Positions 21,959 to 23,504 of a stretch of 37,733 nucleotides of DNA are shown here, one piece after another; position 1 is the first letter of the stretch, and each line of letters starts with the position of its first letter. The position numbers and the translations under genes were made by a program. The DNA is taken from contig JAKACA010000014.1 of the NCBI GenBank assembly GCA_021796455.1, positions 1 through 37,733 on the forward strand, read 5' to 3'. The DNA is from Actinomycetes bacterium. Lineage in GTDB: Bacteria; Actinomycetota; Acidimicrobiia; Acidimicrobiales; Bog-793. The notes beneath the pieces were generated by a model. It was not told the origin of the DNA. It saw only the letters and a program-made list of their open reading frames with translations, and ran no database searches.

Positions 21959-22019
21959 CGGCGGGGCCTGATTCGGACTTCCATCTCGAGTTGGCCTTCA
22001 TCAACTCGTCTGGAGTCTT

Positions 22020-23504
22020 GTGACAGTCACGTTTTCCGATCTCGGGGTCTCCCCGGAGCTAGTCGCCCGCCTACGCACCCTAGGCCTCACCACACCGTTT
22101 CCGATTCAGACTGCAACCGTGCCCGACGCCCTTGCTGGCCGGGATGTCTGCGGGCGCGCCCCCACCGGCTCCGGGAAGACACTTGCATTCGGGATTGGGA
22201 TAGTCAGTCGGTGCAATGGAGCGGCTCCCCGTCGTCCCCTCGCTCTGGTCCTCGTGCCAACTCGTGAGCTGGCGGCTCAGGTGCAACGCGAAATCGCCGG
22301 TCTGTCGGCGTCGGGCTCGCGCCGCGTCATCGCGATCTATGGGGGAACGGGCTACTCGCCCACCCGCCAGGCTCTTTCGAAGGGGGTAGACACTGTCGTT
22401 GCCTGTCCGGGTCGTCTCGAGGATCTGCTCAGCCAGCAGATGATCGATCTGAGCGCGGTGGAGACCGTCGTTCTCGACGAGGCCGACCGCATGGCTGACA
22501 TGGGGTTTCTTCCCTCGGTCAAGCGCATTCTCGACGTGACGAAGCCGGGGCGCCAGGTGCTTCTCTTCTCGGCGACGCTCGGCCCGGAGATAGAGGCACT
22601 CGTTCGCCAGTATCTTTCCAGCCCGGCGCGACACGATGTCACTCCAGCCGAGGAGTCGTCCGACGTGTCACATCTGTTCTGGCACGCAGAGCGCGAGGAG
22701 CGCGTCGGCCTGACGGCGCGCCTTGCCGGGGAGCACGGTCGGGCGCTCGTCTTTTGTCGCACACGTCACGGTGCTGACCGTCTCGCCAAGCAGCTGAAGT
22801 TCGCCGGCGTCGAGGCCATGGCCATCCACGGTGACCGCACCCAGGCCCAGCGGGAACGAGCGCTCGCGGCGTTCTCCCGTGGCTCGACGCAAGTGCTCGT
22901 GGCCACCGATGTGGCAGCCCGGGGCATTCACGTCGATGACCTGTCTTGCGTCGTCCACTTCGACCCGCCTGCAGATGCGACCGACTACCTGCACCGATCG
23001 GGTCGAACGGGCAGGGCGGGCAAGACGGGCACAGTCGTATCGCTTGTGACCGGAGAGCAGCAGAAGGCTGTCCGCTCCCTGCAGCGCTCCCTTGGCCTCG
23101 AACAGCTCCTGCGCTCACCTGGACGTGCACTACCCGCAGACGGCGGTGCTCCCCGGACACCGGCGCCCTTGGTGGGCCGCCCCGCGCGACCCGACCGCCC
23201 CGCGCGACCCGACCGCCCCGCGCGACCCGACCGCTTCAATGACCGCAACACTTACCGCAACACCGAATACAACGCCTCTAGAAGGCACAATCAAGGAGCA
23301 AGAATGCCAGTCGGCACTGTCAAGTTTTTCAACGCTGAGAAGGGGTACGGTTTCGTCTCCCGGCCGGACGGGGAGGATGTCTTCGTCCATTACAGCAACG
23401 TGCAGGGCTCGGGCTACCGTACGCTCGAGGCCGGCCAGCAGGTCGAGTTCGAGGTAGCGCCCGGCCGGAAGGGCGACGAGGCGCGCAACGTCCGGGTTAT
23501 CTGA
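22020..23504 (+). CDS. DEAD-box RNA helicase fused to a C-terminal cold-shock domain
   Basis: A 494-residue fusion. Residues 1-about 360 are a complete DEAD-box helicase: Q motif ([12 protein letters not shown]), motif I APTGSGKT (47-54), Ia PTRELAAQ, motif II DEAD (153-156), motif III FSAT, motif [13 protein letters not shown] and motif [12 protein letters not shown]. Residues about 390-428 are a basic Arg/Pro/Asp and Asn/Arg linker with three RPARPD repeats. Residues 429-494 are a full CspA-type domain ([15 protein letters not shown] with RNP1, DVFVHY as RNP2). Such a fusion couples duplex unwinding to single-strand RNA binding. Met429 has its own Shine-Dalgarno (AAGGAG at 23293-23298), so a stand-alone 66-residue cold-shock protein may also be made. 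GTG 22020 has GGAG just upstream. Confidence 0.93.
23178..23231 (+). repeat. Three 18-bp tandem repeats encoding RPARPD
   Basis: CGCCCCGCGCGACCCGAC is repeated three times without any mismatch at 23178-23195, 23196-23213 and 23214-23231, inside the linker between helicase and cold-shock domain. Perfect identity suggests recent expansion and a length-variable linker. The encoded peptide is Arg-rich and probably disordered. Confidence 0.9.
23293..23306 (+). promoter_or_regulatory. Internal ribosome-binding site and ATG for a separate cold-shock protein
   Basis: AAGGAG (23293-23298), a 5-nt spacer and ATG (23304-23306) are in frame with the helicase and lie exactly at the first residue of the cold-shock domain (MPVGTVKFF). 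This is the start one would choose for a free-standing csp gene. No stop codon intervenes upstream, so both products are possible. Confidence 0.7.

Follow-up and report, generated by a model that had tools for sequence, protein, structure and literature searches.

A DEAD-box helicase–cold-shock domain fusion of Acidimicrobiia with a predicted internal start for a free cold-shock protein

A gene in the 37,733-nt stretch of Acidimicrobiales DNA analyzed here (the window) encodes a DEAD-box RNA helicase that continues in frame into a complete cold-shock domain (CSD), and it probably specifies two products, a helicase-Csp fusion and, by internal initiation, a free 66-aa cold-shock protein (Csp). 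We put the probability of this sequence-based reading at roughly three in four. Full-length translation from the GTG at 22020 would yield a helicase carrying an RNA-binding CSD on a flexible linker of ~55 residues, and ribosomes would also initiate on the same mRNA at the internal AAGGAG/ATG (23293/23304), producing the free Csp. In the fusion, an RNA chaperone that binds single strands would be tethered to the helicase, and the free Csp would be a diffusible chaperone; we infer that ribosomes use the internal site and that both products are active.

The fused gene and its domains

The plus-strand reading frame at 22020–23504 contains no internal stop, and its product matched the Pfam families DEAD (residues 28–192), Helicase_C (237–334) and CSD (432–493), all far above cut-off, with the CSD match reaching 84.9 bits (cut-off 27) and spanning positions 3–65 of the 66-position profile. 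This bore out the initial annotation, according to which the helicase runs without a stop into a complete Csp domain. Motifs Q, I (APTGSGKT), II (DEAD), III (SAT) and VI (HRSGRTGR), together with a two-RecA core, identify the N-terminal part as a DEAD-box RNA helicase. None of the named equivalogs DbpA, CshA, SrmB, RhlE and CsdA scored above its NCBIfam cut-off for the window helicase, the best scores being 330.5 for DbpA (cut-off 524) and 313.6 for CshA (cut-off 646). An AlphaFold model of the fusion, for which 22 fused relatives served as input, presented a confident helicase up to about residue 370, a disordered linker and a confident five-stranded fold for the CSD (residues 430–494). The nearest records come from Acidimicrobiales (Actinomycetota). 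At the DNA level, positions 23185–23235 of the linker are near-perfect repeats of GACCCGACCGCCCCGCGC, which encode the PARPDR repeats, and the linkers of other fusions carry long RPERSF-type repeats.

Table 1 Features of the fused gene in window coordinates
Feature	Position	Strand	Remarks
DEAD-box RNA helicase–cold-shock domain fusion, 494 aa	22020..23504	+	GTG start, GGAG at 22012–22015
Helicase core, ~residues 1–370, including Q motif	22020..23129	+	motifs; AlphaFold pLDDT mostly >90
Flexible linker, residues 375–426	23142..23297	+	pLDDT <50; R/P-rich with PARPDR repeats, then an N-rich low-GC3 stretch
Internal Shine-Dalgarno AAGGAG, 5-nt spacer to ATG	23293..23298	+	conserved in sister genes
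Cold-shock domain with its own ATG; predicted free 66-aa Csp	23304..23504	+	RNP1 KGYGFV and RNP2 DVFVHY intact

The candidate internal start and its recurrence among relatives

The first methionine of the Csp had been annotated as having an AAGGAG site of its own, and this was confirmed: Met429 (ATG at 23304) follows the motif after a 5-nt spacer, and 66 codons remain in frame. Exact Shine-Dalgarno (SD) motifs were used for counting in place of anti-SD duplex energy, which is too permissive in GC-rich sequence, and ~290 kb of the window genome served as background. AAGGAG or AGGAGG was present at −16 to −4 of 2 of the 765 in-frame internal ATGs, one of these being the 23304 site, and of 11 of 173 gene starts. 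The combination of an in-frame start and an SD at the domain boundary of the window gene therefore lies beyond chance, as is to be expected of a gene within a gene. Synonymous codon usage gave probabilities of 0.026 for CAA and GGA at Gln-Gly in the window's own genome and of 0.013 for AAA and GGA at Lys-Gly in the genome of its sister gene (G007), so that the codon choice at the motif is an unusual one in both genes. The internal start is also comparatively accessible, with an unpaired probability of 0.62 against a gene mean of 0.40 (top 5% of gene positions), and the corresponding site in G007 is less paired than 90% of gene positions. GC3 is 0.36 in the last 11 linker codons (418–428), compared with 0.74 for the helicase and 0.85 for the CSD. 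A dip of this kind also occurs in some start-less fusions (L085, L089, L018); it is therefore nonspecific and was rejected as sole evidence of a start.

A survey of relatives for separate versus fused genes, as had been proposed for the window gene, collected 171 distinct helicases of this kind across Acidimicrobiia, 61 of which are distinct fused genes with an in-frame C-terminal CSD. Most fused CSDs lack a start codon at the boundary (e.g., APVGTVRFF in L003 and L004, the closest relatives in a first scan, versus MPVGTVKFF in the window), and for these start-less genes the fusion protein is the only predicted product and presumably the only one made. Six of the 61 combine an ATG or GTG at the first CSD codon with AAGGAG or AGGAG, namely the window gene (AAGGAG-5-ATG) and those of G007 (AAGGAG-8-ATG), G707 (AAGGAG-7-GTG), G740 (AGGAG-7-ATG), and G652 and G716 (both AAGGAG-4-ATG). 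Neither motif occurred in the same stretch of the 48 fusions without a boundary start codon (Fisher p = 3e-5 for the association of motif and start, which is a guide only as the rows are related and not independent). A GTG with GGAG at the boundary of L005 constitutes a weaker case.

The six genes sit in two well-supported helicase clades (37 rows, support 98; 13 rows, support 99), both of which also contain start-less fusions, and within the window's own clade the full site is found in only two genomes. The codon phase of the motif varies, with CAA GGA G in the window gene and AGG AGC in G707; it reads as Gln-Gly-Ala in one clade and as Arg-Ser in the other, and because different residues are encoded the protein sequence alone does not explain the SD. 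Two further observations concern helicases of this group. The gene L317 (G750:C43), sister of the G707 gene, appears unfused, but this is an artefact, as its contig ends exactly before the csp start. In other related Acidimicrobiia DEAD helicases (L035, L038, L039, L041, L043, L047, L054, L055, L060, L071, L073, L077 and L078) the place of the CSD is taken by a domain resembling an RRM (VYVANLPW...GRSKGFGFVDMP), which represents a parallel fusion to a different RNA-binding domain.

Conservation of the site and the likely source of a predicted free Csp

Across three sister pairs, 46 of 55 columns (84%) were identical within the last 20 linker columns before the start, compared with 199 of 385 (52%) in the rest of the linker, although the encoded residues (RSNT, RST) could be the reason why part of this stretch is maintained. 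The site is conserved in six fused genes and in three diverged pairs, again as a gene within a gene would be. These figures bear most directly on the leading alternative, which we consider unlikely, that only the fusion protein is made and that the internal SD and methionine are unused relics of a captured free csp. The abundance of relatives without a CSD start codon speaks for it, as the fusion evidently functions where its own gene supplies no free Csp, and so do the boundary methionines of L022, L082 and L297, which have an ATG and no clear or strong SD. Against relics stands the finding that in all three pairs the linker is diverging and no part of it is conserved as well as the SD stretch, and that the window and G007 genes both retain the SD at a helicase identity of 67–68% with the same codon at only 41% of shared helicase residues, a divergence that an unused 6-mer would not be expected to survive.

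Constraint on the CSD points in the same direction as the two-product reading. The difference between CSD and helicase identity averaged +0.11 among the genes with start and SD (15 pairs) and −0.11 among the remaining fusions (52 genes, 1185 pairs). For the window and G007 the identities were 0.88 (CSD) and 0.68 (helicase), and no other sister pair of comparable divergence has a distance ratio as low as theirs (0.32). Stronger constraint on a CSD behind a start is what a free Csp would require, although a recent recapture of a csp would give the same pattern.

The internal ribosome-binding site (RBS) would be equally conserved if the free Csp were translated from a separate short mRNA, transcribed from a promoter inside the helicase gene, and actinobacterial promoters can match the consensus poorly. 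However, no sigma-70-type site was found near the internal start, and TANNNT is absent from the plus strand at 22617–23345, which includes ~690 nt upstream of the ATG. With no promoter-like sequence nearby, the same mRNA is the likeliest source of a free Csp, and a separate transcript is rather improbable. Rfam returned no match in the window.

Overall, the proposal of a fusion plus a stand-alone Csp from one gene stands in two respects: the fusion is genuine and in frame, and the internal start, whose site recurs and is conserved in relatives, is credible. The two products themselves remain a prediction. Internal initiation on one mRNA might, more tentatively, characterize a dual-product gene family of Acidimicrobiia in which that mRNA sets the ratio of fusion to free Csp, possibly with a shift in the cold owing to the open stretch around the internal RBS, and in which start-less CSDs subsequently diverge.

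Age and origin of the fusion

Entire helicase clades spanning orders of Acidimicrobiia are made up of CSD fusions, and one clade of 35 rows is nearly all fused. In a careful CSD tree, one of several that are weak for resting on 65 columns, the window and G007 CSDs sit on short branches among fused CSDs that lack a start and belong to their helicase clade (93/99), and they adjoin a set of free csps (group A). Based on the 35-row clade and this placement, the simplest history would be an old fusion in which the internal start was kept in some lines and lost in others. AU tests of one fusion versus csp recapture gave p values of 0.24 and 0.12, with which a recapture stays compatible.

The initial annotation had instead suggested a recent fusion of two adjacent genes, by which a helicase and a neighboring csp would have been joined lately through stop-codon loss in the window lineage. 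This is very unlikely, although several observations fit it. The window and G007 CSDs are closer to free Csps of the same bacterial family (68–79% identical) than are the CSDs of their nearest fused relatives lacking the methionine, L003, L004 and L005 (58–63%). The linker of L022 extends beyond the helicase C-terminus of the unfused L081 (NRKARRAHLQ), consistent with an independent fusion by stop loss, and another helicase of the family, from the genus to which G007 belongs (L112, G023:C150), is followed ~110 nt past its stop by a separate csp, adjacent and unfused. The nearly complete fusion of the 35-row clade and the grouping of the window and G007 CSDs with fused CSDs lacking the methionine argue against recency, as does the location of the most similar free Csps, since free group A csps do not lie beside a helicase in G005, G006, G009, G012, G018, G022 and G028, all of the window's family. 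Among unfused relatives, a csp lies directly downstream of L112 and L056 only; none follows the helicase in L316–L336, and none was found within the 99 nt between L081 and its contig end. An assembly or sequencing error that conceals a helicase stop codon, conceivable in a 3.57-Mb draft of 334 contigs, is ruled out, since dozens of genomes carry independent fused genes with this layout.

Group A type CSDs are present in the window genome and in G007 as the fused copy only, and the one CSD found elsewhere in the window genome belongs to a free csp on contig C24. Genes surrounding the window fusion are not common to its relatives; two-component genes shared with G005 and G006 were rejected as a synteny signal because they are generic. 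Free group A csps (L115, L116, L119, L120) have an upstream leader in common that contains GGCTACGCTC as well as an inverted repeat like CGCTCCGAGGTGGAGCG; the repeat may form a regulatory hairpin and has no Rfam match.

Relation to known systems

In bacteria, cold-shock proteins and DEAD-box helicases are believed to act together in RNA unfolding as products of separate genes. Throughout part of a bacterial class, helicase and chaperone are here combined in a single polypeptide, and some of the genes seem, from their sequences, to retain a free chaperone through an internal start. The genes provide a natural series (start kept, start lost, unfused) for testing why the two activities are linked, and would add a housekeeping case from RNA remodelling to the few known genes within genes. 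No DEAD-CSD fusion with an internal start was described in the papers reached by a literature search that covered few subscription journals; the architecture may be listed in protein databases.

The window helicase core aligns over its whole length with bacterial DEAD-box RNA helicases (heat resistant RNA dependent ATPase 4kbf, CshA, DbpA), from which it differs in having a CSD as its C-terminal extension and in scoring far below the equivalog cut-offs. The CSD itself resembles free Csps of the CspA/CspE type, with RNP1 and RNP2 intact, but its coding sequence forms the 3′ end of a helicase gene. In Arabidopsis, the DEAD-box helicase AtRH7 is partnered with the cold-shock protein AtCSP3 (PMC4846089); there, the two are encoded by separate genes and meet by protein-protein contact, in contrast to the fusion in the window.

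As for translation, a CRISPR large subunit with an internally translated small subunit (McBride 2020, as cited in PMC10327210) offers a likeness in so far as that citation describes it, in that a C-terminal domain is also made alone from an in-frame internal start, as predicted for the window gene. The CRISPR proteins are unrelated to those of the window, and their short product belongs to the same complex as the large one. The Rpn nucleases (RpnL/RpnS) likewise use an internal translation start to produce a full-length protein and a separately translated C-terminal domain (PMC10327210). The window gene would share with them the use of one frame for a full-length protein and its C-terminal domain alone, the small product being in this case a prediction. 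Unlike the Rpn pair, the window pair would consist of an RNA helicase fusion and a canonical RNA chaperone, in which no toxin-antitoxin logic is seen.
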